Below are positions 1,772 through 29,212 of a DNA stretch of 41,105 nucleotides, one piece after another. The translations under genes were made by a program, and so were the position numbers. Source of the stretch: a bacterium (GTDB taxonomy: Bacteria > AUK180). The notes under the pieces were generated by a model. It was not told the origin of the DNA, made no database searches, and saw nothing but the letters and a program-made list of their open reading frames with translations. Location of the stretch: NCBI GenBank assembly GCA_023144005.1, contig JAGLGN010000012.1:1-41105 (forward strand), given 5' to 3'. Each line of letters opens with the position of its first letter. The stretch's first letter is position 1.

Positions 1772-4282
1772 ATGAATAAGAAACTATTTCTGTTTGCTGC
1801 GGTCTTTCTCCTGCTTTCATCCGTTTGTTATGCGGAAACGGTCATCAAAGAAGGGCTTCAACTCGGACTTTCAGCATTCACTCCGGAAATGATACAATCA
1901 ATGAAGGACTCCATCGGAGTCAGAGAAGCCGGCAAGAATTACAATGTGATCGTTAATGGATTGGGAACAGGATTAGCGCCACTCTCGGAAGGGCAATTTG
2001 AAGAATTGCTGAAAAATGGAAAAATTATCCTATCGGCTGATAAGCTCAGCCGCTCAAGAGCGGCAGCATCTTATGACAACTCCACTTCGGACTATTTTCC
2101 ACCCGTCGGCAATCAAAGATTTGAGGGTTCATGCGCATGCTGGTCCATGGTTTATTATATCAAGACATATCAGGAAGCGATGGACCGTTTATGGGATCTT
2201 TCCGGGGCAACCTATTCATACAATTGGGATAATCCCGGAATAAATGAGCCGGACAGCGGACATCAGGACAAGATAATGTCGCCGGATTTTGCATATCATC
2301 AGGTCAACGACGGAGACGATAATGGATCATCCTGGAGCGACATTGCAGAACTTATGGAAAAATTCGGTTCCTGTACCTGGGATTTGATGCCCTATGATGA
2401 TCAGGACCACACAACATATCCCGATGAGGCAGCCTACAGGCAGTCCGCGAAATACCGTTCGGATTGGACAGACACTTGGATCAATCTGCTGGGGGGCACT
2501 GCCCTTGACACGATGAGAACATTGCTTGAGAATAAGACACTCTTGAGTTTCGGCATTGATGCATATGAATATAATTTTCAAACCGTTTCCGGACAGGACC
2601 TGCTTGTTGCGGATTCATATCCCGCCACCGCCCAATATAATCACGCCAATACAATTGTAGGGTACGACGATAGTTTTGGTCCTTATTGGGAAGCCGATGG
2701 ATGGCACAGTGGAGCATTCAAGGTCGTGAATTCATGGGGTTCATGGGGCGATGAAAATGTTCCTGACGGTTACTATTATGTTTCCTACGCGGCTATGCTC
2801 GCCATGGATATGGAGTGGTGTGTTTACTATTATGACAAGGTGGATTACGAGCCCACTTACATCGCGAATATCCATGTTTCACATAATGCGCGTGGCGATG
2901 CCATAAGAAGCATCACGCGAAATGACGGTACAGCAGTTACACGGAATTTTGATTACAGGGGAATGAGGGGCGGGAATCATGCCTTCACGGGCGACAATGT
3001 TATCCTGGATATATCGGAAATGATCTCCTCAGACCCGAGGGGGAATTACTATTTTAATGTTTACGATCTTGCCAATGGCGAGGCCTATCCGGACTCATGG
3101 GATACTGCCGGTACTTCTACACAGGGCTCAATAACAAAATTCTGGATCGAAGATTATACCGATGTCACTTATTCAACCTATGATTCCTCTTCTCCGATCG
3201 CGATATATTATGCTACCGATACGCCGATAAGCACTATAAACGGGCAGACAAAAAGTTCTTATATCTATACTAATTATGCGCCGGTACTTGCTTGGAGCGG
3301 AGGAGGAGGATATACCGCGGACGGCGTCGAACCGAATAGCGGCAATAGCGGAGACACCTTCACCTTCATAGTGAAATATACGGATGATAACAATAATGCC
3401 CCGACAGTAGCACAGGTCTGGATAGATATTAATGATTCCGGAGTATTTGATGCCGGTGAAAAATTCAATATGATAAATTTCATGGCATCTGATTATTTCA
3501 AGGGCGGTGTAGCCTATTCATATGCCACGACACTAGCTTTTTCAGGTGACGCTGTCTTGAATTACCGTTTTGCCTTCTCGGACGGCAGAAATGCCGCCAA
3601 CGGTGTACCCACATCTGAAAGCACCGTAACCGTAACCCCGGTAGGGCCTTATCTTTCTTGGCTGGGAACGGGTAATTATATTTCAGACGGCATTGACCCT
3701 CAAGTGGGAAATTCCGGTTCGCTTTTTACATTCTCTGTTAAATTCACGGAATCATCCAATACACTTCCTGACACATATCAGGTCTGGATCGATCTTGATG
3801 ATTCAAGTGTTTATGATAATGACGAGAAATTCAATATGACAGAAAATGATGGCGGAGACACTGACCTGACCGACGGCAAGCTTTACTCATTATCCAAGAA
3901 TATCTCATATGCCGGCAACGGCAGTCTGATCTATACCTTTGAATTCTGGGCAGCAGGATCCGAAGCTCCGGGAAGCCCGGCGGGGAATTCCACCTTTGAT
4001 CTGATCACTCCTCAGGCAACCGATCTGGAAGGATTGGTGGTTTATCCCAATCCCAACAATGGCGATAACCCCGTGATATTTAATGATCTTACCGAAAATA
4101 CTTCCATAAGTATATACAGCATCGCGGGAGAACTGGTCTTCTCCACGGAAACCGACTCTCTTTCTTTCTCCTGGTATCTGGAGAATTCATCAGGTGAAAA
4201 GGTAGCTTCCGGAATATATTTTTATGTCGTTTCCAATTCCAAAGGCGATCTAAAAAAAGGAAAGATCGCGATTATTATTTAA
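1772..4282 (+). CDS. Secreted papain-like (C1A) cysteine protease with C-terminal sorting-type domain
   Basis: This protein has 836 residues. Residues 1-21 form a signal peptide ending at CYA. The papain fold follows: Gln115 and the likely nucleophile Cys121 in NQRFEGSCACW, six apart as in papain; the catalytic His in HANTIVGYDD; and the Asn in KVVNSWGSWG. Two related beta-rich repeats of about 110 residues come next, each with GNSGxxFTFxVK, QVWIDxxDS and DxxEKFNM. The last 80 residues (VYPNPNNGD...ISIYSIAGE...ASGIYFYVV) look like a FlgD/Por-secretion-type Ig domain used for surface sorting or anchoring. An in-frame ATG at 1760 exists, but TGGAG just upstream of 1772 supports the later start. 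A role in extracellular protein degradation is inferred. Confidence 0.85.
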   Translation: MNKKLFLFAAVFLLLSSVCYAETVIKEGLQLGLSAFTPEMIQSMKDSIGVREAGKNYNVIVNGLGTGLAPLSEGQFEELLKNGKIILSADKLSRSRAAASYDNSTSDYFPPVGNQRFEGSCACWSMVYYIKTYQEAMDRLWDLSGATYSYNWDNPGINEPDSGHQDKIMSPDFAYHQVNDGDDNGSSWSDIAELMEKFGSCTWDLMPYDDQDHTTYPDEAAYRQSAKYRSDWTDTWINLLGGTALDTMRTLLENKTLLSFGIDAYEYNFQTVSGQDLLVADSYPATAQYNHANTIVGYDDSFGPYWEADGWHSGAFKVVNSWGSWGDENVPDGYYYVSYAAMLAMDMEWCVYYYDKVDYEPTYIANIHVSHNARGDAIRSITRNDGTAVTRNFDYRGMRGGNHAFTGDNVILDISEMISSDPRGNYYFNVYDLANGEAYPDSWDTAGTSTQGSITKFWIEDYTDVTYSTYDSSSPIAIYYATDTPISTINGQTKSSYIYTNYAPVLAWSGGGGYTADGVEPNSGNSGDTFTFIVKYTDDNNNAPTVAQVWIDINDSGVFDAGEKFNMINFMASDYFKGGVAYSYATTLAFSGDAVLNYRFAFSDGRNAANGVPTSESTVTVTPVGPYLSWLGTGNYISDGIDPQVGNSGSLFTFSVKFTESSNTLPDTYQVWIDLDDSSVYDNDEKFNMTENDGGDTDLTDGKLYSLSKNISYAGNGSLIYTFEFWAAGSEAPGSPAGNSTFDLITPQATDLEGLVVYPNPNNGDNPVIFNDLTENTSISIYSIAGELVFSTETDSLSFSWYLENSSGEKVASGIYFYVVSNSKGDLKKGKIAIII

Positions 4283-4446: not shown

Positions 4447-4701
4447 ATGGAAAACAGCAAACTTTATGTTGGCAATCTGAGCTATGATGTTGGGGAATCC
4501 CAGCTTGAAGAACTTTTCGCACAGTACGGTCAGGTCAAAAGCGTGACCATTATTGGTAGAAAGGGATTTGGATTTGTAGAAATGAGCAACGCTGATGAGG
4601 CCAAGGCCGCAAAAGAAGCGCTCAATGACACACAGTTCGAAGGCAGGACCATGAGAGTGGACGAAGCCCAGCCTAGAAAAGAAAGAAACGACCGTTATTG
4701 A
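4447..4701 (+). CDS. Single-RRM RNA-binding protein, copy 1
   Basis: This 84-residue protein is a single RNA recognition motif: RNP2 is LYVGNL (6-11) and RNP1 is KGFGFVEM. It has only a short, charged tail and no glycine-rich tail. Bacterial RRM proteins of this type bind single-stranded RNA, and in cyanobacteria some are cold-induced; which RNAs this one binds cannot be read from the sequence. GGAG at 4437-4440 is a good ribosome binding site. Promoter, leader, gene and terminator are all duplicated 551 bp downstream with few residue changes, so this is a recent tandem duplication of a whole transcription unit. Confidence 0.9.
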   Translation: MENSKLYVGNLSYDVGESQLEELFAQYGQVKSVTIIGRKGFGFVEMSNADEAKAAKEALNDTQFEGRTMRVDEAQPRKERNDRY

Positions 4702-4997: not shown

Positions 4998-5252
4998 ATG
5001 GAAAACAACAAACTTTATGTTGGAAATCTGAGCTACGATGTTGGGGAATCCCAGCTTGAGGAACTTTTCGCGCAGTATGGCGAAGTAAAAAGTGTTCGTA
5101 TTATCGGCAGAAAGGGTTTTGGATTTGTTGAAATGGGTACCGCTGATGAGGCCAAGGCCGCAAAAGAAGCACTCAATGAAACAGAATTTGAAGGCAGAAC
5201 CATGAGAGTGGACGAAGCCCAGCCCAGAAAAGAAAGAACCGACCGTTATTGA
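4998..5252 (+). CDS. Single-RRM RNA-binding protein, copy 2
   Basis: This 84-residue paralogue of the preceding gene keeps both RNP motifs (LYVGNL and KGFGFVEM) and the same C-terminal tail (MRVDEAQPRKER). Only about nine residues differ, for example Q31 to E and T35 to R, mostly outside the RNA-contacting aromatic positions. It has its own promoter and terminator, so the two could be expressed separately. Keeping both may raise dosage or allow different control through leader differences. Confidence 0.9.
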   Translation: MENNKLYVGNLSYDVGESQLEELFAQYGEVKSVRIIGRKGFGFVEMGTADEAKAAKEALNETEFEGRTMRVDEAQPRKERTDRY

Positions 5253-12179: not shown

Positions 12180-13394
12180 TCAATCCCTCAGACATTCCGC
12201 CGGTTCCATTTTTGTAGTTTTATTCGCAGGGAAATAACTTGCGCCGGCTCCTGCGACAATACTAATCAAAAGGGAATGCAGATACGGCGCAAAGCTCCAT
12301 CGGGTTTTGATCACTCCCATGACCTTATACCCGATATCCACATCATCCGATCCCATCATAGCGGTCAGGTCGATCCCTTTAATACTGAAATACCAGATCG
12401 CAAGAGAGCCAAGGATCATACCCAGGAAAGCCCCCGCGATCCCTATAAATGTACCCTCAAGGACGAAGAGGTCGCGGACTTGGCTATCCGCCATGCCCAA
12501 GGCCTTCAGAGTTCCTATCTGCTTTCTTTTTTCAAATATCGAAAGCATCATTGTATTCGCGATCCCAACAAACGCCAGGATCATCACCAAAAAGACAAAG
12601 ACCAACGCAGAATTCCAGTCGGCATTGGCAAATGCTATAAAGGATTCACCCAGTTTTCGCCATCCTATGGCTTGAACTTCCTTGGGAAGGTCCGGCGCGA
12701 TGGCTTCAATATGCCTCGTCGTCTTCTTGGGACTATCGGTAAGAATGGCGATCTCCGTAGGGTCGCTGGTTCCCAGAAATATCGCGGCATCTGAAAGGGT
12801 GATATATACGGATGAATTATTGACCTCGGGGTCGGCGGCGTTAACAATACCGCCGATCAGAAATTCCCTTGAGTCTATCATACCGTCCATTGAGCGTACG
12901 GTCAAATATACATGATCATCCATCACCACATCAAGATCCGTTGCCAGTGACTTTCCGATCAATAATGCGCCTTCGCTCAACTCACCCTCGGTAACAAATT
13001 TTTCCAATTTGAAGACACTGCTATCGCTTTTCCCCGAGATACCCCATATCAGAACATTGATCGAATCGATGCCATTATCAACTTCACCTACTATCTTTAT
13101 GCGGGGAGTGAATCCCTGTATAAAATCTTTTTCTTTCAATATCTTGGATATAGAATCCCAGGAAGAGATAAAATTGCCCTTGCTGAAAGGTTTTTTCTCA
13201 TCATACTCAATATTTCTGATCTTTATATGCGAGGTAGTGAATTCGATAAGATTCTCAAAGGATTTCTCCCTTATCCCGCCGGCCGCGCCGTAGAACCACA
13301 TGTATAATCCGATACTGAATGTGATCAGAAGAAGCGTCAGAATTGTGCGTCTTTTATTGCGGATCAGGTTTTTAACGGCAAGTTTGAAGATCAA
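12180..13394 (-). CDS. FtsX/LolC-family ABC permease, type B
   Basis: This 404-residue permease has the same four-segment layout: NLIRNKRRTILTLLL at the N-terminus, a periplasmic domain, and FEKRKQIGTLKALGMADSQVRDLF ahead of the last segments. It is most like the gene at 15317 (shared SFENLIEFTTSHIKIRNIEYDEKKPFSKGNF pattern in shorter pieces), so these are type-B paralogues. It overlaps the upstream type-A gene by 4 bp (ATGA), implying coupled translation. It probably forms a heterodimer with a type-A partner. Confidence 0.85.
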   Translation of the reverse strand: MIFKLAVKNLIRNKRRTILTLLLITFSIGLYMWFYGAAGGIREKSFENLIEFTTSHIKIRNIEYDEKKPFSKGNFISSWDSISKILKEKDFIQGFTPRIKIVGEVDNGIDSINVLIWGISGKSDSSVFKLEKFVTEGELSEGALLIGKSLATDLDVVMDDHVYLTVRSMDGMIDSREFLIGGIVNAADPEVNNSSVYITLSDAAIFLGTSDPTEIAILTDSPKKTTRHIEAIAPDLPKEVQAIGWRKLGESFIAFANADWNSALVFVFLVMILAFVGIANTMMLSIFEKRKQIGTLKALGMADSQVRDLFVLEGTFIGIAGAFLGMILGSLAIWYFSIKGIDLTAMMGSDDVDIGYKVMGVIKTRWSFAPYLHSLLISIVAGAGASYFPANKTTKMEPAECLRD

Positions 13395-14593
13395 AGTTTT
13401 CTCAACGCCTCCGCTGCGGAAAGTTTCTTCGCGTATCTCGCGGGGAAATAGGCCGCGATCGAAGTTACGATTATTGCTAAAAACACGGTAATAAAAAGAA
13501 TTTCAATGCCGGTATAAGGCCTTATGACATAGGTCATTGGATAATCCATTCCCGATAAGGCGGATTCCATGTTTATTCCGACCTTGTTGACCCAGAGAGT
13601 GAGCACATATCCGGCGATCGCGCCGATAAGGCCGCCGAATGTACCTATGATTCCACCCTCCATAGTAAAGCTGCCCTGTATCTCGCCGTCGGTCATCCCA
13701 AGCGCCTTAAGGGTACCGATCTCGCTAAGCCGTTCAAAGATCGATTGCATCATGGTGTTAACAACAACAAAAGACGCGAGTGCGAGGATAAGTATTTCGA
13801 TAAAGAAAACAATCCCCTTGTAGCTCACTACCATATCCCAATAAGCACCGATCTGTTCCTTGGCGGTACGGGCGGTAAGTCCTTTGTCTAAGCGGGATGA
13901 CAATACCTCACTTACAGGCATCATATCGTCTCTATCTGTAAACACATATATCTCAGTAGAAGCTCCCTTCATTTTCAAAAGTTTTTTTGCATCCTTTTCA
14001 GCAATATAGAACACCCTTTCATCCATGGAAGCTACCTGCATTTGAATGAGGCCGTTCACCCTGAATTTCATACCGTTCAAGCCGCCTTCGGAGGTATTCG
14101 TAGCCAGCAAAAGTTCATCCCCTATCTGCGCGCCGATCTTCTGGGCAAGTTTCACTCCGATATAAAGCCCTTCGGGTGAAAATTCTCCTTCCGACAGATT
14201 ATTTTTTATATCAAGACAGGTTTTTTCCAGATCAACGCCGATTCCCATAGCGGTAACCGTTTTCGCGCCTCTTCCCAGAAGGATCCCGAAGCGAACGCGT
14301 TCCTCTACGGAAACGACTCCCTCTATTTTTCTTATCTCATCGATCAATTCCGCAGAATTATAGATGAGTTCGTCAACGGGAAGGAACTTTCCTCTTTCGA
14401 CATAATCTTCTGTAGTGACCTTAATGCTACCTGTCTGGTACTTTGTAAAATTACCCATCATCATGTCCAGAACGCCGTTCATATATCCCATGGAAAACAC
14501 GGATACGACCCCGGCGAAGAAGATTGCGAGTCCGGTCAGGAGTGAGCGCCTTCTATTACGGAAAACATTTCTGAATGCAAATTTAAGCAGCAT
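13391..14593 (-). CDS. FtsX/LolC-family ABC permease, type A'
   Basis: This 400-residue permease starts at MLLKFAFRNVFRNRRR. An upstream in-frame extension is possible, but AGGAGG lies 6 nt before the ATG at 14593. It has the type-A periplasmic signature (YQTGSIKVTTEDYVERGKF) and FERLSEIGTLKALGMTDGEIQGSF. Its ribosome binding site is held in a 9-bp hairpin (14594-14622), so translation may be restricted. Upstream of that lies the inverted-repeat element with the S23 gene, which separates it from its likely type-B partner at 15317. Confidence 0.85.
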   Translation of the reverse strand: MLLKFAFRNVFRNRRRSLLTGLAIFFAGVVSVFSMGYMNGVLDMMMGNFTKYQTGSIKVTTEDYVERGKFLPVDELIYNSAELIDEIRKIEGVVSVEERVRFGILLGRGAKTVTAMGIGVDLEKTCLDIKNNLSEGEFSPEGLYIGVKLAQKIGAQIGDELLLATNTSEGGLNGMKFRVNGLIQMQVASMDERVFYIAEKDAKKLLKMKGASTEIYVFTDRDDMMPVSEVLSSRLDKGLTARTAKEQIGAYWDMVVSYKGIVFFIEILILALASFVVVNTMMQSIFERLSEIGTLKALGMTDGEIQGSFTMEGGIIGTFGGLIGAIAGYVLTLWVNKVGINMESALSGMDYPMTYVIRPYTGIEILFITVFLAIIVTSIAAYFPARYAKKLSAAEALRKL

Positions 14594-14622
14594 AAAAACC
14601 TCCTGCTTCGCATGAGGTTTTT
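14594..14622 (-). promoter_or_regulatory. Hairpin hiding the ribosome binding site of permease A'
   Basis: In the mRNA AAAAACCTC pairs perfectly with GAGGTTTTT across an 11-nt loop. The second arm is the ribosome binding site and runs right up to the ATG, so an intact hairpin should hinder initiation. Translation from upstream or a bound factor could open it. Confidence 0.6.
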
Positions 14623-14631
14623 GGTAGCAAG

Positions 14632-15319
14632 TAGGAAGTACGATGTACGAAGTATAAACCCCCACATAATTCAAGCTTTATTAATATGTACGCAGACTTG
14701 AGTACATATCCTTCAGATTCAAAATCAATCTTGATAAAAGGATCTCTATAGTTTTTCATTATTTAACTCCATGATCTTCTTCTTTGTGTTTATAAGTAAC
14801 CCAAGAACATTCTGACAATGTTTTTTTATTTCAAGATATATATCATCATGAAGAATACCAAGCTCTTTACATAAATATAGCTGATAATCCAATTCTGAGC
14901 ATGATCCTATTGCAACTTTCAGAAAATATATGTATTCCTTTTCTGAGTGGCGCGCATCTCCCTCGATCAGATTAGATGGAATCGACACCGCAGCACGTCG
15001 CATTTGAGATGTCAATCCGAATTTTTCTTCTTCATGGAACTCTTTGGTAATCTTATATACGCCTATAGCAAGTTTATGTGATTCTTTAAAAACTTCCATA
15101 TCCTTTAGTTTCATCTCAATATATCTCTCTCTTCCTGATTCTCCCACATCACACTTCGTACATCGTACATCGTACTTCGTACGCCGTACTATATTTATCA
15201 CATCGCACTTCGTACCCTCATATTTCCTTCTTTCTTCACCTCGCACATCGTACCTCTTACCTTCTTATTTCCTTCCCCTCTCCACTTCGTACTTCGCACT
15301 TCGTACATCGTACTTCCTA
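14632..15319. mobile_element. S23 cassette 1: inverted-repeat element carrying a four-helix-bundle gene
   Basis: Arms 14632-14653 and 15298-15319 are perfect 22-nt inverted repeats. They start TAGGAAGTACGATG and are built from the 7-bp unit. The right arm begins with the TAG stop codon of the permease at 15317. Between them lie the S23 gene (14746-15114) and further heptamer arrays (15145-15190: CACATCA CACTTCG, then TACATCG twice, TACTTCG, TACGCCG; more at 15200-15260). The same plan occurs at 16566-17060. Confidence 0.7.
14746..15114 (-). CDS. S23-type four-helix-bundle protein (23S rRNA intervening-sequence family), cassette 1
   Basis: This 122-residue protein has the family pattern MEVFKESHKLAIGVYKITK, QMRRAAVSIPSNLIEGDAR and EYIYFLKVAIGSCSELDYQL. 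The family (PF05635-type) folds as a four-helix bundle and was first found in intervening sequences of 23S rRNA genes; its molecular role is not established. The longer open frame upstream runs through heptamer repeats (reading as repeated TKYDVR/TKCDV), so I start at the ATG at 15114 where the family begins. It lies between two permease genes of one operon, inside an inverted repeat, and looks like an insertion. Confidence 0.85.
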   Translation of the reverse strand: MKLKDMEVFKESHKLAIGVYKITKEFHEEEKFGLTSQMRRAAVSIPSNLIEGDARHSEKEYIYFLKVAIGSCSELDYQLYLCKELGILHDDIYLEIKKHCQNVLGLLINTKKKIMELNNEKL

Positions 15320-16537
15320 TTGGTTCGTGCGCAAACATTCCGCAGGCTGAAGCTTTGTGGTCTTCTTTGCAGGAATAAAGCTTGCAACAACACTTGCAAT
15401 CACGCAGCCCGTCATTGAGGTGACAATGCTCGCGATATCCCATTTGGCCTTAACGATCCCCATCACCTTATACCCGACATCCATACTGGCATCCCCTCCG
15501 GTAAAGGCAGAAATATCAAAGCCTTTAACTAGGAAATACCACATGAAGAGAGCACCCAGAATGAGACCGAAAATAGCGCCGAAGACGCCAACAAGAAAAC
15601 CCTCCCAGACGAATATTTTCTGGACCTCGCCATCTGTCATGCCAAGAGCCTTCATTGTCCCGATCTCCTTTTTCTTTTCAAGAACTGACATCAGCATGGT
15701 ATTAATGATGCCTACGAGCCCGATTATTGCGATAAACATGATAAAAATGCCCTGGCCCCTTTTCTTCATGGTTGTAATATTGAAAAAGGATTCTCCCAGC
15801 TTTCTCCAGCTCAATACGGCAAGGCCGGGTAATGCTTTTTCAAGCTCGGGTTGGTACTTCTTATATTTTTCAAAATCAACAGTTTTCATGGCTATTTCAG
15901 TAACGCCGGGCAACTCAATAAACCCTTGTAGCTCCCCGATATTCATGAACAATGTTGAGCTGTTAATAAGCGGATCAGGGGCATTTAAAATTCCACTGAC
16001 CTCTAGCTCAATGGAGTCTATCATGCCTTGGGCCGTTCTGAATGTAAAATATACAAGATCACCCGTATCCACTTTCATGTCCTTGGCAAGGTCGCGGCCA
16101 AGTATCACGCCTCCGGGGGTCAGAGATCCTTTTGATACAAAATCGTTCAGATTAAATACCTTGTGATCTTCCTGCGCGTCAATCCCATAAGCCATACATG
16201 GCTTTGAATCCAGTCCGTTATCAAGCTCGCCTCTCAAGGTGAGCCGTGTAGCAATACTTGTAACAAAGGGAAGTTTTTTCAATTTTTCAATAACCGCTTC
16301 GTATCCGGTAACAAAGTTGTCCTTCGAAAAAAGGATCTCCTCGTCAAAGTCAATCGTTCTGATCTTGAAATGGCCGGTCTCAAAATTTATAAGATTCTCC
16401 ACGGACATATCATCAAATCCTTTCAATACACCAGCCATCCACATATACATCCCCACAGCGAATGAAAGTACCGCGAATGTCAGAAAGGTTCTACGCTTGT
16501 ATCGAAGAATATTTTTCAATGCAAATTTAAAGAACAT
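15317..16537 (-). CDS. FtsX/LolC-family ABC permease, type B'
   Basis: This 406-residue permease has N-terminal NILRYKRRTFLTFAVL, a periplasmic domain, then LEKKKEIGTMKALGMTDGEVQKIF and three membrane segments. It is the type-B paralogue of the gene at 12180. GAGGAGG lies 7 nt before its start. Its TAG stop codon is the first three bases of the S23 cassette arm, so insertion took place at or very near the stop codon; the C-terminus CLRTNQ resembles CLRD of its paralogue and seems intact. Confidence 0.85.
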   Translation of the reverse strand: MFFKFALKNILRYKRRTFLTFAVLSFAVGMYMWMAGVLKGFDDMSVENLINFETGHFKIRTIDFDEEILFSKDNFVTGYEAVIEKLKKLPFVTSIATRLTLRGELDNGLDSKPCMAYGIDAQEDHKVFNLNDFVSKGSLTPGGVILGRDLAKDMKVDTGDLVYFTFRTAQGMIDSIELEVSGILNAPDPLINSSTLFMNIGELQGFIELPGVTEIAMKTVDFEKYKKYQPELEKALPGLAVLSWRKLGESFFNITTMKKRGQGIFIMFIAIIGLVGIINTMLMSVLEKKKEIGTMKALGMTDGEVQKIFVWEGFLVGVFGAIFGLILGALFMWYFLVKGFDISAFTGGDASMDVGYKVMGIVKAKWDIASIVTSMTGCVIASVVASFIPAKKTTKLQPAECLRTNQ

Positions 16538-16565
16538 TTTCGCCTCCTCTGCAGGTTGTGAGTCT

Positions 16566-17060
16566 GAAGTGTGAAGTCTGAAGTGTGAAGTAAGGGAGTT
16601 TAATATTATTAATAACTGCCCAACAATTGCATTTTATAAAGAGTAATCCATCATTCATTTCTTTCCTCCACTGCCTTTCTGGTACTTATGAGAAGATTCA
16701 TTGTTTCCTCACATAGATAATAAGCATTGTTTTTCTGTTCAGTATCTATATATCCCAGGTCATTGCATAGCAGATACTGATATCTTAATTCAGCACACGA
16801 ACCTATTGCCATTTTCAAGAAGTATCCATACTCCTTCTTCGAATATCTGGAATCTCCTTCAATTAAATTTGTGGTAATAGAAGTAGAAGATCTCCTCATC
16901 TGATTTAGCAGAGTAAATCGTTCATCATTTGGAAGATCTTTGGTAATCTTGTAAGTGTATAAAACTAATTCATGGGATTTTTTGAAAACTTCCATTTCCT
17001 CAATCTTCATTTCTCTCTCCTCTTCCCACTTGGCACCTCACACTTCACACCTCACACTTC
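16566..17060. mobile_element. S23 cassette 2: inverted heptamer arrays around a four-helix-bundle gene
   Basis: Arm 16566-16591 (starting GAAGTGTGAAGTCTGAAG) and arm 17035-17060 (ACCTCACACTTCACACC...) are 26-nt inverted repeats matching at about 22 positions, with most mismatches allowing G-U pairing in RNA. They enclose 443 nt with the S23 gene at 16651-17010. One end lies 7 bp after the ATPase stop codon, the other 28 bp before the next permease start. Confidence 0.65.
16651..17010 (-). CDS. S23-type four-helix-bundle protein, cassette 2
   Basis: This 119-residue paralogue of the cassette-1 protein has MEVFKKSHELVLYTYKITKDL, QMRRSSTSITTNLIEGDSR and EYGYFLKMAIGSCAELRYQ. GAGAGAG lies just upstream of the ATG. 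The two S23 proteins are clearly related but far from identical, so the cassettes are not a recent local duplication, or have diverged for long. The gene sits between the ATPase and first permease genes, inside an inverted repeat, and has no obvious link to export. Confidence 0.85.
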   Translation of the reverse strand: MKIEEMEVFKKSHELVLYTYKITKDLPNDERFTLLNQMRRSSTSITTNLIEGDSRYSKKEYGYFLKMAIGSCAELRYQYLLCNDLGYIDTEQKNNAYYLCEETMNLLISTRKAVEERNE

Positions 17061-17067
17061 TTATTGT

Positions 17068-17742
17068 CTACGATTCCACGATACGCCCGTCTCTCATTTT
17101 GATGACGCGCTTGGCATGCTTCATTATAACAGGGTCGTGCGTAGAAAAAAGGAATGTAACTTTCTCGATCTCATTCATCTTTCTCATGATATCAACTATC
17201 ACTTCACCTGTTTTTGAGTCAAGATTCGCCGTTGGCTCGTCCGCAAGGACCATCTTTGGCTTTTTTACGAGCGAGCGGGCTATAGAAACCCTCTGCTGCT
17301 GTCCGCCCGAGAGTTCCAATGGCATTCTTTTTTCCAGGCCCTGAAGCTCCACTTCCTCCAAGATAGCGAAGACCCTGTCCTTCATTTCTTTATGGGTGTG
17401 TTTGCCTAATAATTTCAGAGGCAGCTCAATATTTTCATAAACCGTCAGCACAGGGATCAGATTATATGTCTGAAATATAAATCCGAAATACTCCCTGCGC
17501 AAAAGAGCCAATTGCTTGGAGCTCTTACCCGTCAGATCTATTCCGTCTAAAATAACATTGCCACCATCCGATGAATCAATGCATCCTATTATATTCAAAA
17601 GAGTGGTCTTCCCTGAGCCGGAAGGACCGACGAGAGCAACAAATTCTCCCTGATCAACCTCCACGTCAATATCGTGTAACGCCTGGAAATCAACTTTGCC
17701 GGAATGGTAGATCTTATTTATTTTCTGCACATCCAATAGCAT
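17068..17742 (-). CDS. LolD/MacB-type ABC transporter ATPase
   Basis: This 224-residue ATPase has Walker A GPSGSGKTT (39-47), the Q-loop FIFQTYNLIPVLTVYENIELPL, signature LSGGQQQR, Walker B KMVLADEPTANLDS and the switch His in FLFSTHDP. Length and motifs fit the LolD/MacB branch, whose ATPases power FtsX-type permeases and do not move substrates through a channel. It is the only ATPase in the operon, so it probably serves both permease pairs. It follows the barrel gene by 9 bp. Confidence 0.9.
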   Translation of the reverse strand: MLLDVQKINKIYHSGKVDFQALHDIDVEVDQGEFVALVGPSGSGKTTLLNIIGCIDSSDGGNVILDGIDLTGKSSKQLALLRREYFGFIFQTYNLIPVLTVYENIELPLKLLGKHTHKEMKDRVFAILEEVELQGLEKRMPLELSGGQQQRVSIARSLVKKPKMVLADEPTANLDSKTGEVIVDIMRKMNEIEKVTFLFSTHDPVIMKHAKRVIKMRDGRIVES

Positions 17743-17751
17743 ATATGCCTC

Positions 17752-18798
17752 CTATAGTTTTGCTTCAAATCTTAACATGATCCCATATCTTCCCATGGCA
17801 GCGGAGGAGTACTCATCCTTATTGCCGCCGGTGAGAAAAAAGAGGTTCATCGTGGCGTTCAAGCCATTATTTATTGTCCATCGAATTCCTGGCGCGATCA
17901 CAGAACTCAGATCGATCCCGTTCGTGAAAGAGTATATGTAAAAACTCAGAAATTCGTCATAAGAGAAGCTCAGATTCGCATAAAGATAATGTTTCGCCTT
18001 ATTGTAGGCATCAGAAAATACTTCTCCGTATTCTGAAATTTCATCCGCTCCTTTTTCATTGTAATAATATACCAATTGTAAAAAGACCGTTCCGAAAAAG
18101 CGCTCCAATCCCAAATTTGCTTCTAAGAAATCACGAGTCACTGAATCGTCGAAATGCTGGGCGAGAGCCGCCTGCACAGAAAAATAGAGATCTCCCTTAA
18201 AATACAAACCTGCAAGATTCTGTTCCGCGGAAAAGCGGCTTAGAACTGCCCCAATATCAAATGTCCCGATATTCGTATGAAGAGATATGCCTGCGGCTCC
18301 TTTTTCGACTATGGTATCCGGCGCGAGCCACATCCTTAATCCGGTCAGGTCCCCAAGAGAGAGATCCCAGATCACTCCATCCATTCCTGTCTTATCATAA
18401 GAGACATCTGAAATATTCAGCTCCTTTGAGGTGTCAAAGGGATTGAAGGGGCCAATATTTCCAACAGCGATATATGTTCTGCCCAAGGTGAATGTCCCGA
18501 ATGATGAAGAAAACCTGATAAAAAAGCGCATCGGCTGAAATTCAGGGTCTGGAGAAATCTCTCTGAACAACCCGCTGTAAATGTATAGCCTGAGGTCGCC
18601 GTAGAATTTCCAGCTATTGGCCGATTTTCTCAGTATAAGCCGGTTTTCCATTGAATTGCCGTAACTGAAGCCGTTACCTGCCGCGACAAGATACAGATCG
18701 TCTCGAAATACTCCCGAAATATCAAGAGCGCAGGGAGTCAGAAGGCAGGTGCTTACAAAAAGAAATGATAACAATATGACAAGAAGAGGTCTTCTCAT
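17752..18798 (-). CDS. Predicted outer-membrane beta-barrel protein
   Basis: This 348-residue protein has a signal peptide (about residues 1-24, ending near CALD) and many alternating aromatic/polar strands, such as WKFYGDLRLYIYSG, FMIRF-like and FLSFYIYSF, with a final strand ending RFEAKL. I do not recognise a named family. Between the LolA-like gene and the ABC ATPase, it could be the outer-membrane end of the export route or its cargo. It begins 1 bp after the LolA-like gene, so translation is probably coupled. Confidence 0.6.
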   Translation of the reverse strand: MRRPLLVILLSFLFVSTCLLTPCALDISGVFRDDLYLVAAGNGFSYGNSMENRLILRKSANSWKFYGDLRLYIYSGLFREISPDPEFQPMRFFIRFSSSFGTFTLGRTYIAVGNIGPFNPFDTSKELNISDVSYDKTGMDGVIWDLSLGDLTGLRMWLAPDTIVEKGAAGISLHTNIGTFDIGAVLSRFSAEQNLAGLYFKGDLYFSVQAALAQHFDDSVTRDFLEANLGLERFFGTVFLQLVYYYNEKGADEISEYGEVFSDAYNKAKHYLYANLSFSYDEFLSFYIYSFTNGIDLSSVIAPGIRWTINNGLNATMNLFFLTGGNKDEYSSAAMGRYGIMLRFEAKL

Positions 18799-20295: not shown

Positions 20296-20323
20296 ACTAT
20301 CTCCTTCTTCTCTTCTCAAGTGT

Positions 20324-20597
20324 AGTGCTCTGATTCATAGATAGGGTAACAATGGCTGATGCTATTTTGCCTCGTATACAAGGCGCGAGGAACGCCGCAT
20401 ACCCGCTGCGGTATGTAAGCAACGAGCAACGCAGAAAACGAAAAAAGAGCTTCAGCCCGAAGGGAAATCTCATCTTTGGCCAATTCCTTTCTCTCTCTTC
20501 GCTTACGTACCACCATGGGTACGCCGCACTCATCGCTCGTTGGAATTGACTCAAATCTAAACATTCCATTGTCATCTTATTTATCAATCAGAACACT
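20324..20597. mobile_element. Complete MITE-like element, 274 bp
   Basis: The left end AGTGCTCTGATTCATAGATA and the reverse complement of the right end (AGTGTTCTGATTGATAAATA) are terminal inverted repeats of about 32 bp, both ending GACAATGG/AACAATGG. There is no coding capacity. Other ends of this family lie at 508-571, 8414-8553, 25458, 27199 and 27429-27972. Flanking TA-like bases fit a Tc1/mariner-like TA target, but this is not consistent at all copies. Confidence 0.85.
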
Positions 20598-20688
20598 TGG
20601 CATCCATAACGTAAGATGCGGCAATACATCCTCCTGGGATGACGAAAGCATAAATAAAAGCAACAGCGGCTACTGCGTATCCTGCCAT
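20584..20688 (-). CDS. Small membrane protein (34 aa) whose C-terminus comes from a MITE
   Basis: The frame reads MAGYAVAAVAFIYAFVIPGG, then CIAASYVMDAKCSD. One membrane helix spans about residues 4-26. AGGAGG lies 5 nt before the start, inside the preceding gene, whose stop codon it overlaps. The last codons (KCSD and the TGA) are the end of the MITE at 20324-20597, so the original C-terminal tail was lost or displaced; the paralogue at 20143 has a 26-residue tail here. Confidence 0.6.
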   Translation of the reverse strand: MAGYAVAAVAFIYAFVIPGGCIAASYVMDAKCSD

Positions 20689-20810
20689 TTTTTCCTCCTT
20701 CTGGTTTCAACAACTTCTTCAACGCGGGAAAGATCTCTGATAAACAACATTGAGAAGATCCCCTGCAAGATCAAAAACAAAACGAAAGCATAGGTGAGGG
20801 TAATTTCCAT
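20670..20810 (-). CDS. Small membrane protein (46 aa)
   Basis: The protein begins MEITLTYAFVLFLILQGIFS and continues MLFIRDLSRVEEVVETRRRKKWQ. One membrane helix spans residues 4-24, followed by a charged, possibly helical tail. GGAGG precedes the ATG by 6 nt. It overlaps the next small gene by 19 bp. I do not recognise the family. Small proteins like this often act as subunits of larger membrane complexes, but no partner is encoded nearby. Confidence 0.65.
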   Translation of the reverse strand: MEITLTYAFVLFLILQGIFSMLFIRDLSRVEEVVETRRRKKWQDTQ

Positions 20811-27242: not shown

Positions 27243-27428
27243 AAATGCGAGGCATTAAGAAGTGTGAAGTGTGAAGTGCAAAGTGAAAAGAATAAAACAA
27301 TATCCACACCTGCCTCTCTTTCATTATTCATTTTTCAATTCCCAACTTGTGCCTTATGCACTTGTCACTTGTGCACTGCGAAGCATAACCTTTGAACCTT
27401 TGAACGATTTTCTCCACGCGCGCTTTAA
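27243..27428. repeat. Heptamers and GGGTCC/CACTTGT-type repeats
   Basis: AGAAGTGTGAAGTGTGAAG (27259-27277) is a heptamer array. CACTTGTCACTTGTGCACTG and CGAAGCATAACCTTTGAAC (27361-27400) match the motif near 9895-9915. No gene is seen. Confidence 0.6.
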
Positions 27429-27972
27429 AGTGTTCTGATTCAAAATACGATGACAATGGAATACTTAGATTTGAGCCAATTCCAACGAATAATAAGTGCT
27501 GCGTACCCTTTGTGGTACGGAAGCGAAGAGAGAGGAATAAATTGGCCAAAGATAAGATTCCCTTCGGGCTGATGCTCTTTTCCTGTCTTCTTCGTTGCAA
27601 GTGCTCTGATTTAAAATCCGCTGACAATGGAATGTTTAGATTTGAGGCAATTCCAACGAATAATGAGCACAGCGTACCCTCTGTGGTCCGTGAGCGAAGA
27701 ATGAGGAAGAAATTGACCAAAGATAAGATTCCCTTTGGGCTGAATCTCTTTTGCCGTCTTCTACGTTCCTCGTCCCTTACATACCGCTGCGGGTATGCAG
27801 CGCTCACTGCTCCTCTCATGCTAAACAAAATAGTTTCAGCCATTGTTATCGGATTTTGAATCAGAGCACTACAGTCCCTTACATACCGCTGTGGGTATGC
27901 GGCGCTCCTCGCGCCTTGAATACTGAGCGAAATAGCATCAGCCATTGTTACCGTATTTTGAATCAGAGCACT
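27429..27972 (-). mobile_element. Outer MITE interrupted by a second copy
   Basis: 27429-27599 is a right half (AGTGTTCTGATTCAAAATAC...), and 27871-27972 is a left half (TTACATACCGCTGTGGG... to AATCAGAGCACT). Together they make one complete element, in opposite orientation to the one at 20324, split by the copy at 27600-27870. The outer edge overlaps the fabF stop codon. Confidence 0.8.
27600..27870 (-). mobile_element. Inner complete MITE, 271 bp
   Basis: It begins AGTGCTCTGATTTAAAATCC and ends ATTTTGAATCAGAGCACT, with terminal inverted repeats. Its internal sequence is collinear with the element at 20324 in reverse. It lies inside the outer copy near the point where CGTTGC and CCCTTACATACC should join, so it inserted later. 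Confidence 0.85.
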
Positions 27973-29212
27973 AAATCTTTCCAAAGAGCAGGACTCCATT
28001 ATGGCCGCCAAAGCCGAACGAATTTGAAAGCACATAGTTTAACGCTTTATCTCGTGCGGTATTGGGCACATAATCCAGATCTATCTCTTCGTCAGGTGTT
28101 GTATAATTTATCGTGGGGGGTATGATCCCTTTCTCAATGGCTTTTAATGAGCCTATGGCCTCAATAGCAGCTGCGGCTCCTAAGGAATGCCCGGTCATTG
28201 ATTTCATCGAGGATACCGGGATCTTATGCGCCAGGTCCTTGAAAAGATCCTTGATCCCGAGTGTTTCATTAAGATCATTTGCCTTGGTGGATGTTCCGTG
28301 GGCATTGATCCAGCTTATTTGATCAAGGCCTATTCCTGCCATTTTTATGGCCTGCGCCATAGCGCGGCGGCCGCCTTCGGCTCTTGGGGCAGGGGCGGTA
28401 TCATGATGGGCGTCTGCGGTATTTCCATATCCTACTATCTCACCGTATATTTTTGCTCCGCGTTTTTTTGCGTGCTCCATTTCTTCAAGGATCAGAATGC
28501 CGGCTCCTTCAGCAATAACGAATCCGTCTCTATCTTTGTCAAAAGGCCTTGATGCGGCAGTGGGGTTATCGTTAAACCCGGTGGATAATGCGTGCAGGGA
28601 ACAAAACGCCGCAAGGCTCAATTGTGTAATGGGGGCTTCGGCGCCTCCGGTGACGATTATATCCAATTCATTTCTTCTTATGGTATTATACGATTCCAGG
28701 ATCGCGTGCGCGGATGACGCACAGGCGGTTGTTGTGGAATAATTAGCACCCTTAAGATTATAGGCCATAGAGAGTCGGCCTGGAAGCATATCATTGATCA
28801 TCCGAATGATGAGAAAAGGCGATACACGGTCAAGTCCTTTTTCATTCATTAAAGTAACTTGTTCTTCAATTTCATAGATACCGCCAATACCGGAACCGGT
28901 AATAGATCCGCACCTATAAGGATCCGTTGAAGAAAAATCCAATCCCGAATCCGCAACCGCTTCTTTCGCCGCGATCAGGCCGTATGAAATAAATATTGAA
29001 AGACGGCGCAGAGCCCTCTTCTCAAAATAATCCAACGGATCATAATCATTAACTTGACCTGCCACCTTTGAAATTAAAACTTCTGTATTAAAACGCTCGA
29101 TCCGGGATATTCCCGATACACCGTTCTCAAGTCCGGTCCAGAACTCCTCAACGTTTTTTCCTAGTGAATTTATTGTACCCATACCTGTGACTACAACTCT
29201 TCTCTCACTCAT
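27971..29212 (-). CDS. fabF: Beta-ketoacyl-ACP synthase II
   Basis: This 413-residue condensing enzyme elongates acyl-ACP in fatty-acid synthesis. The Cys-His-His triad is seen in TTACASSAHA, INAHGTST and MTGHSLGAAAAIEA. GGAG precedes the ATG at 29212; a longer in-frame start has no support. The stop codon TAG is the outermost three bases at the MITE end (AGTGCTCTG), so the insertion lies exactly at the 3' end of the gene. The C-terminus NGVLLFGKI looks normal in length. It is the last gene of the fatty-acid cluster. Confidence 0.95.
   Translation of the reverse strand: MSERRVVVTGMGTINSLGKNVEEFWTGLENGVSGISRIERFNTEVLISKVAGQVNDYDPLDYFEKRALRRLSIFISYGLIAAKEAVADSGLDFSSTDPYRCGSITGSGIGGIYEIEEQVTLMNEKGLDRVSPFLIIRMINDMLPGRLSMAYNLKGANYSTTTACASSAHAILESYNTIRRNELDIIVTGGAEAPITQLSLAAFCSLHALSTGFNDNPTAASRPFDKDRDGFVIAEGAGILILEEMEHAKKRGAKIYGEIVGYGNTADAHHDTAPAPRAEGGRRAMAQAIKMAGIGLDQISWINAHGTSTKANDLNETLGIKDLFKDLAHKIPVSSMKSMTGHSLGAAAAIEAIGSLKAIEKGIIPPTINYTTPDEEIDLDYVPNTARDKALNYVLSNSFGFGGHNGVLLFGKI

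Follow-up and report, generated by a model that had tools for sequence, protein, structure and literature searches.

The window analysed here, the whole 41,105-nucleotide stretch of bacterial contig JAGLGN010000012.1, contains a minus-strand operon in which an ATPase gene is followed by an S23 cassette (cassette 2), an FtsX permease gene, another S23 cassette (cassette 1), and a second FtsX permease gene with further permeases. The features of the operon and its two cassettes are listed in Table 1.

Table 1. Genes, arms, and arrays of the operon and its two S23 cassettes (window positions)
Feature	Position	Strand	Sequence, match, or remark
ABC transporter ATPase, host gene upstream of cassette 2	17068..17742	−	PF00005
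Cassette 2, whole	16561-17060	−	S23 and inverted heptamer arrays, between ABC-ATPase and FtsX permease genes
Cassette 2, 5′ arm	17028..17060	−	Coding strand GAAGTGTGAGGTGTGAAGTGTGAGGTGCCAAGT; starts 7 nt past the ATPase stop codon
Cassette 2, S23 (23S rRNA-intervening-sequence protein) gene, 119 aa	16651..17010	−	PF05635, 1.5e-32
Cassette 2, 3′ arm	16561..16591	−	Coding strand ACTTCACACTTCAGACTTCACACTTCAGACT; FtsX start region comes next
FtsX-like permease, host gene between both cassettes	15317..16537	−	PF02687/PF12704
Cassette 1, whole	14624-15319	−	S23 and arms between two FtsX permeases
Cassette 1, outer 5′ arm	15283..15319	−	TAGGAAGTACGATGTACGAAGTGCG...; 15298-15319 is 22/22 complementary to 14632-14653
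Cassette 1, inner 5′ heptamer array	15146..15190	−	A further match to the 3′ arm: 30 nt, 87% complementary
Cassette 1, S23 gene, 122 aa counted from internal ATG	14746..15114	−	PF05635, 7.8e-35
Cassette 1, 3′ arm	14624..14654	−	TACTTCGTACATCGTACTTCCTACTTGCTAC; arm complementarity
FtsX-like permease, host gene downstream of cassette 1	13391..14593	−	ORF list; 99% identical in G001

The two S23 proteins matched PF05635 at 112.4 and 119.7 bits (cut-off 33.8), covering family positions 1-105/106, and are approximately 50% identical to each other. The initial annotation had described cassette 2 as an S23 gene enclosed by 26-nt arms that match at about 22 positions. The enclosed gene and the arm length were borne out, and the number of matching positions was 23 of 26 (16566-16591 with 17035-17060, 88% complementary); these arms are part of slightly longer arrays (16561-16591 and 17028-17058; 31 nt, 81%). 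The cassette had also been placed correctly at 7 bp beyond the ATPase stop codon: the coding strand reads stop codon TAG, spacer ACAATAA, and then the arm. Folding prediction for the window cassettes as RNA gave a single hairpin closed by the arms, with z of −2.5 and −3.9. An Rfam scan of window positions 13000-18000 gave no match, and the cassettes are not within a 23S or 16S rRNA gene; a 23S gene was not found in this MAG. None of eight S23 loci checked with Rfam (0/8) was located in rRNA. Elsewhere in the window, positions 27428-27973 contain 171-bp and 102-bp tandem repeats, each in two copies, with short ORF-like repeats, which recur near 20300-20800 and at other places in the genome and are perhaps another repeat family. 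Positions 4447-4701 and 4998-5252 encode tandem, nearly identical 84-aa proteins that are RNA-recognition-motif (RRM)-like in appearance.

Complementarity between the 5′ and 3′ flanks was scored for 133 distinct S23 loci from approximately 80 genomes, using 250-nt flanks, with the last 60 nt of the gene included; loci with a score of at least 14 were grouped as paired. Paired inverted flanks were found at 67% of the loci, as compared with 1.1% after the 3′ flank had been exchanged for that of a different S23 locus, and with 1.6% for the 318 non-S23 genes present at these loci. At 93 of the 133 S23 loci, the locus's own flank outscored all 40 swapped flanks. Only one of 153 size-matched genes (0.7%) from S23-bearing genomes was paired, and it was an implausible ORF, apparently inside intergenic repeat DNA. 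The result was replicated in 30 further, independent loci, taken from another phylum and from cyanobacterial plasmids: 21 of them (70%) were paired vs 2.9% with swapped flanks. These controls sustain the initial judgement that a functional unit is much likelier than a chance arrangement. The design is not unique to this operon; the window's two cassettes are one instance of a broad class. Most of the genomes are metagenome assemblies, in which repeats can be misassembled; complete Nostoc and Pseudanabaena plasmid records contain the same cassette design. We conclude that an S23 gene with paired inverted arms is a confirmed, widespread pattern in bacteria. Approximately one-third of the S23 loci lacked detectable paired arms, and these may reflect decay, a second class, or arms lying beyond the 250-nt flanks. 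Tandem periods of 7, 14, or 8 dominated the S23 flanks. S23 genes were present in 82 of 241 genomes sampled, a single-protein scan of genome contigs gave two S23 loci, and a search of phage records for S23 gave no match.

The heptamer units vary by cassette and include GAGGATT, AGAAGAC, GGTAAAC, GGGAACA, TAGCGTT, GAAGTGT, and GAAGTAC, among others. Because each cassette has its own heptamer, the pairing is kept and the sequence is free, an inference made initially from the two window cassettes that now extends across the approximately 80 genomes. Arm sequences were alike only where the S23 proteins were at least 60% identical; below that level they were unrelated, and the arm sequence was therefore rejected as a conserved recognition site. 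Some cassettes mirror even their irregular units without a mismatch (36/36 in L043, for example), which suggests an inherited inverted pair or template-directed correction, besides any selection on pairing. On the coding strand, G exceeded C in the 5′ arm of 58 of 62 informative cassettes. Arm mismatches were G-U in 100 cases and A-C in 78, an excess that was not significant and was not accepted as proof of RNA pairing. A preference in sense-RNA duplex energy was likewise rejected as an RNA signature, because it was also present with the swapped-flank controls. S23 was co-directional with the upstream gene at 85%, only slightly above the 76% baseline, and its co-orientation with the downstream gene was not above baseline. 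The mismatch and strand statistics neither back nor rule out an RNA stem.

Solo heptamer arrays, absent from the initial annotation, are common in this genome. A GAAGTRYG-type pattern had 257 matches in the genome vs only three S23 genes; a control with the pattern reversed had no value for this count, since the reversed heptamer hits those arrays again in a different register. A 425-kb genome sample contained 48 heptamer arrays, and shuffled sequences contained none at period 7. Because arrays are abundant without S23, an array beside a gene is not diagnostic; it is the inverted pair around S23 that is remarkable. Heptamer arrays inverted just as often around non-S23 genes would have refuted the functional unit, and they were not found: over 425 kb of this genome, related arrays no more than 1.6 kb apart formed 16 direct and 7 inverted pairs. 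The two window S23 cassettes account for three of the seven inverted rows, and the other four are without S23, demonstrating that inversion around non-S23 DNA occurs and is not the rule. One such pair (L209 14530/14989) surrounds approximately 400 nt of intergenic DNA; around other genes, inverted arrays were almost absent, as the 1.6% of 318 and the 1/153 above indicate. Some of the scattered solo arrays are related to the cassette arms of the same genome. At the genome level, a link between solo arrays and S23 presence was not established (36 vs 10 arrays in approximately 0.7 Mb each; 10/30 vs 5/29 genomes with arrays, p 0.06-0.13), and one S23-less genome (G071) carries six arrays.

Three other features of the arrays were noted. 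L209 14500-15030 and the series L209-L228 are an intergenic mosaic of several heptamer families with no S23. A TGCTGAGCTTGCTCAGCA hairpin adjoins many AAGTGTG arrays in L209-L228, often in the same order and on the same strand. At the genome's third S23 gene (L003 1828-1926, contig C37 of G000), the 5′ side is occupied by long (GAATGAA)n arrays for which there is no obvious partner arm on the 3′ side.

The operon is 97-99% identical in the sister genome G001, which at junction 1 has the same cassette as the window (98%). At junction 2, G001 has a different cassette, with an S23 that is 77% identical to that of cassette 2 and arms GAAGTGTG; at junction 2 compared with G001, the window has a 50%-identical S23 and arms GAAGTACG. 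Because the cassette at G001 junction 2 differs in S23 and arms alike, gene and arms change together. The initial annotation had counted cassettes 1 and 2 as two independent occurrences. Both are real, and they may not be fully independent, because at these junctions G001 has two copies that are related to each other (77% identical). At junction 1, the outgroups G004, G005, and G006 have no cassette, and G005 has none at junction 2 either. When the positions of other G001 cassettes were compared in G000, two sites (A and B) were cleanly empty, without an array, site C kept an array without S23, and one further site had other arrays.

Reciprocal clean empty sites were found in the Nostoc plasmids pNsp_c and pC052_D, which share an operon that is 89-99% identical and have cassettes at neighbouring junctions. 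At site X the empty sequence is TTCTAGGTTATG and the occupied one is TTCTA[AATCAGGAGTC...CTTCTGGATTCTGA]TTATG; at site Y the empty sequence is a TAATG stop-start overlap, which is split by the cassette when occupied. Neither empty site has an array. The two clean Nostoc sites gave no convincing target-site duplication, with a possible 3-nt ATG at one and none at the other. As judged by these sequence comparisons, the cassette is mobile or at least polymorphic. The outgroups at junction 1 and the canonical stop-start overlap at Y favour gain over loss, a direction that is not proven at every site.

Cassettes occupy the space between the stop codon of one gene and the start codon of the next. 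Their hosts are unrelated: ABC transporter, cas genes, conjugation operons, and tRNAs. On a Pseudanabaena plasmid, S23 lies between cas6 and cas4 (L307 1489-1848); in G001, an S23 gene adjoins an apparent cas2 (L034 ~1488-1836); and L196 has an S23 cassette (2091-3034) in a group of three co-directional tRNA genes. Genome G014 has approximately nine divergent pairs of S23-like genes, one of which (L050 1121-1662, contig C7) forms an inverted repeat of 540 bp, at 77% identity, with a short hairpin in the middle. This twin-gene palindrome is apparently a relative of the cassette.

S23 genes are mostly annotated as 'four helix bundle protein' or 'S23 ribosomal protein', without a function, and to our knowledge S23 has no known catalytic motif. 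Comparison of the cassette 2 S23 gene with its sister-genome paralogue gave dN 0.114 and dS 0.943; the resulting dN/dS of approximately 0.12 indicates that S23 is under purifying selection and that the protein is maintained. Residues Q37, S44, N48, E51, and E74 were at least 95% conserved across the 133 S23 proteins. The solved relatives are 2gsc (XCC0516, Xanthomonas) and 2rld; according to PMC4990558, which cites Lin et al. 2006, 2gsc is a homopentameric ring built of four-helix bundles. Searches of the cassette genes gave only PF05635 and a weak match to bAvd (PF22296; 24 bits vs a cut-off of 40), and no Y1 (HUH) tyrosine transposase was found.

The cassettes resemble the intervening sequences (IVSs) of 23S rRNA in Leptospira and Coxiella, in which an S23 (PF05635) ORF lies in the loop and terminal inverted repeats form the stem; the two are also alike in length (approximately 0.4-0.5 kb) and in their sporadic distribution. 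The Coxiella IVS has an S23 ORF described as decaying, a 28-bp stem of terminal inverted repeats, excision by RNase III, and just upstream of S23 three tandem GACAGAT heptamers whose number varies by strain (PMC4990558). Heptamers next to S23 are thus a further likeness. One property of a 23S rRNA IVS, terminal inverted repeats able to close a stem around an S23 ORF, is met by the cassettes; another, location in a 23S or 16S rRNA gene, is not, the flanks being ABC-ATPase and FtsX genes. IVSs lie inside rRNA helices, whereas the cassettes lie between protein or tRNA genes; in addition, the cassette arms, unlike those of IVSs, are heptamer arrays private to each cassette, and the cassette S23, unlike the decaying Coxiella ORF, is under purifying selection.

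Like REP/RAYT and REPIN systems, the cassettes have one small gene, flanking inverted repeats, and many solo relatives in intergenic DNA; they differ in that S23 is no tyrosine transposase, the cassette ends are not conserved in sequence, and the genome-level link between arrays and S23 is not significant. An insertion sequence or DNA transposon would be marked by target-site duplication and conserved terminal sequences; the two clean Nostoc sites showed no convincing duplication, and the arm sequences were not conserved. Intergenic heptanucleotide repeats are known as Xanthomonas GGGAATC, Nostoc GGGGATT, Calothrix STRR, Geobacter metallireducens elements, and Beggiatoaceae TAACTGA (PMC4692102, PMC2700814, PMC4679880). 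They share with the cassette arms tandem 7-nt units, an intergenic location, variable length, and, in Xanthomonas and Nostoc, G-richness, but the publications consulted do not tie them to S23 or to gene-flanking paired arms. The accessory protein Avd of diversity-generating retroelements (DGRs) has a distantly related four-helix-bundle fold, consistent with the weak bAvd match; unlike DGRs, the cassette has no reverse transcriptase or variable repeat.

The reading that we consider probable is that of a selfish foldback cassette, approximately 0.5 kb long and related to the 23S rRNA IVS but free-standing, with one S23 gene within inverted 7- or 8-nt repeat arrays. Its arm complementarity, intercistronic site, exchange as a unit, and purifying selection were all observed; the RNA-level mechanism (hairpin, RNase III processing, and action of S23 on the stem) is inferred by analogy with rRNA IVSs, with no direct RNA evidence. 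When the host operon is transcribed, the arms would pair as a long stem with S23 in the loop, and the host messages would be separated by the stem itself or, as happens in rRNA IVSs, by RNase III; we propose that intercistronic insertion would therefore cost little. The S23 homopentamer may recognise the stem by its structure and aid the spread or persistence of the cassette, and the arms may stay matched through a pairing-dependent function, template-directed quasi-palindrome correction, or both. The cassette among tRNA genes speaks for this reading. We know of no enzyme for cassette insertion, which counts against it, as do the missing target-site duplication, the weak mismatch and strand statistics, the 0/8 loci in rRNA, and the third of S23 loci without paired arms. 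The main rival is a DNA-level mobile element, in which the inverted arrays are ends used by S23 or a host enzyme in transposition and pairing matters in DNA, for example as single-strand hairpins like those of REP/RAYT or IS200/IS605. The empty sites, the cassette exchange, the lack of an RNA strand signature among the arm mismatches, and the scattered solo arrays that are akin to a genome's own cassette arms fit such an element, and we hold it possible though doubtful, because S23 has no catalytic motif known to us, there is no clear target-site duplication, and the ends, unlike transposase-bound ends, are not conserved even at 40-60% S23 identity.

Alternatively, the arrays could be pre-existing, slippage-prone intergenic repeats in which S23 merely lands or survives, with inversion arising through hairpin-templated correction. 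The frequency of solo arrays (48 in 425 kb), the array without S23 at orthologous site C, and the known over-representation of heptamer repeats in bacteria (PMC4692102) speak for this; it is already weakened, and in our estimate improbable, because other genes lack inverted arrays (1/153 size-matched, 1.6% of 318), non-S23 array pairs are mostly direct, and the clean empty sites A, B, and Nostoc X and Y have no array. The excess of G over C in the 5′ arm could instead mean that the arm is a purine-rich, Shine-Dalgarno-like sequence maskable by the 3′ arm, with S23 and the hairpin controlling translation of the flanking operon genes as a host regulatory unit and no selfish element involved. Purifying selection on S23 and the position between cistrons would agree with this, but the hosts are unrelated, occupancy varies between sister genomes, and the outgroups lack the cassette, so that we give it very little credence.

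A search for literature linking S23 genes outside rRNA with heptamer arms found none, and the IVS paper (PMC4990558) does not describe free-standing relatives. Subscription papers were outside the search; although rRNA IVSs and heptamer repeats are separately known and free-standing S23 cassettes with heptamer arms appear to be new, priority is not certain.

S23 in paired-arm intergenic cassettes ties widespread genes without an assigned function to rRNA intervening sequences; how these arose and spread has been an open question for more than 25 years. Intercistronic insertion plus a hairpin is a testable route. Ends with conserved pairing and free sequence are an unusual type of mobile-element end. 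Speculatively, and we think it unlikely, S23 proteins might create, spread, and maintain heptamer arrays, with the S23 cassette as the autonomous element and solo arrays, including those of Xanthomonas and Nostoc, as its non-autonomous progeny. The over-abundance of 7-nt tandem repeats in bacterial genomes, so far unexplained, could have its cause in these cassettes.
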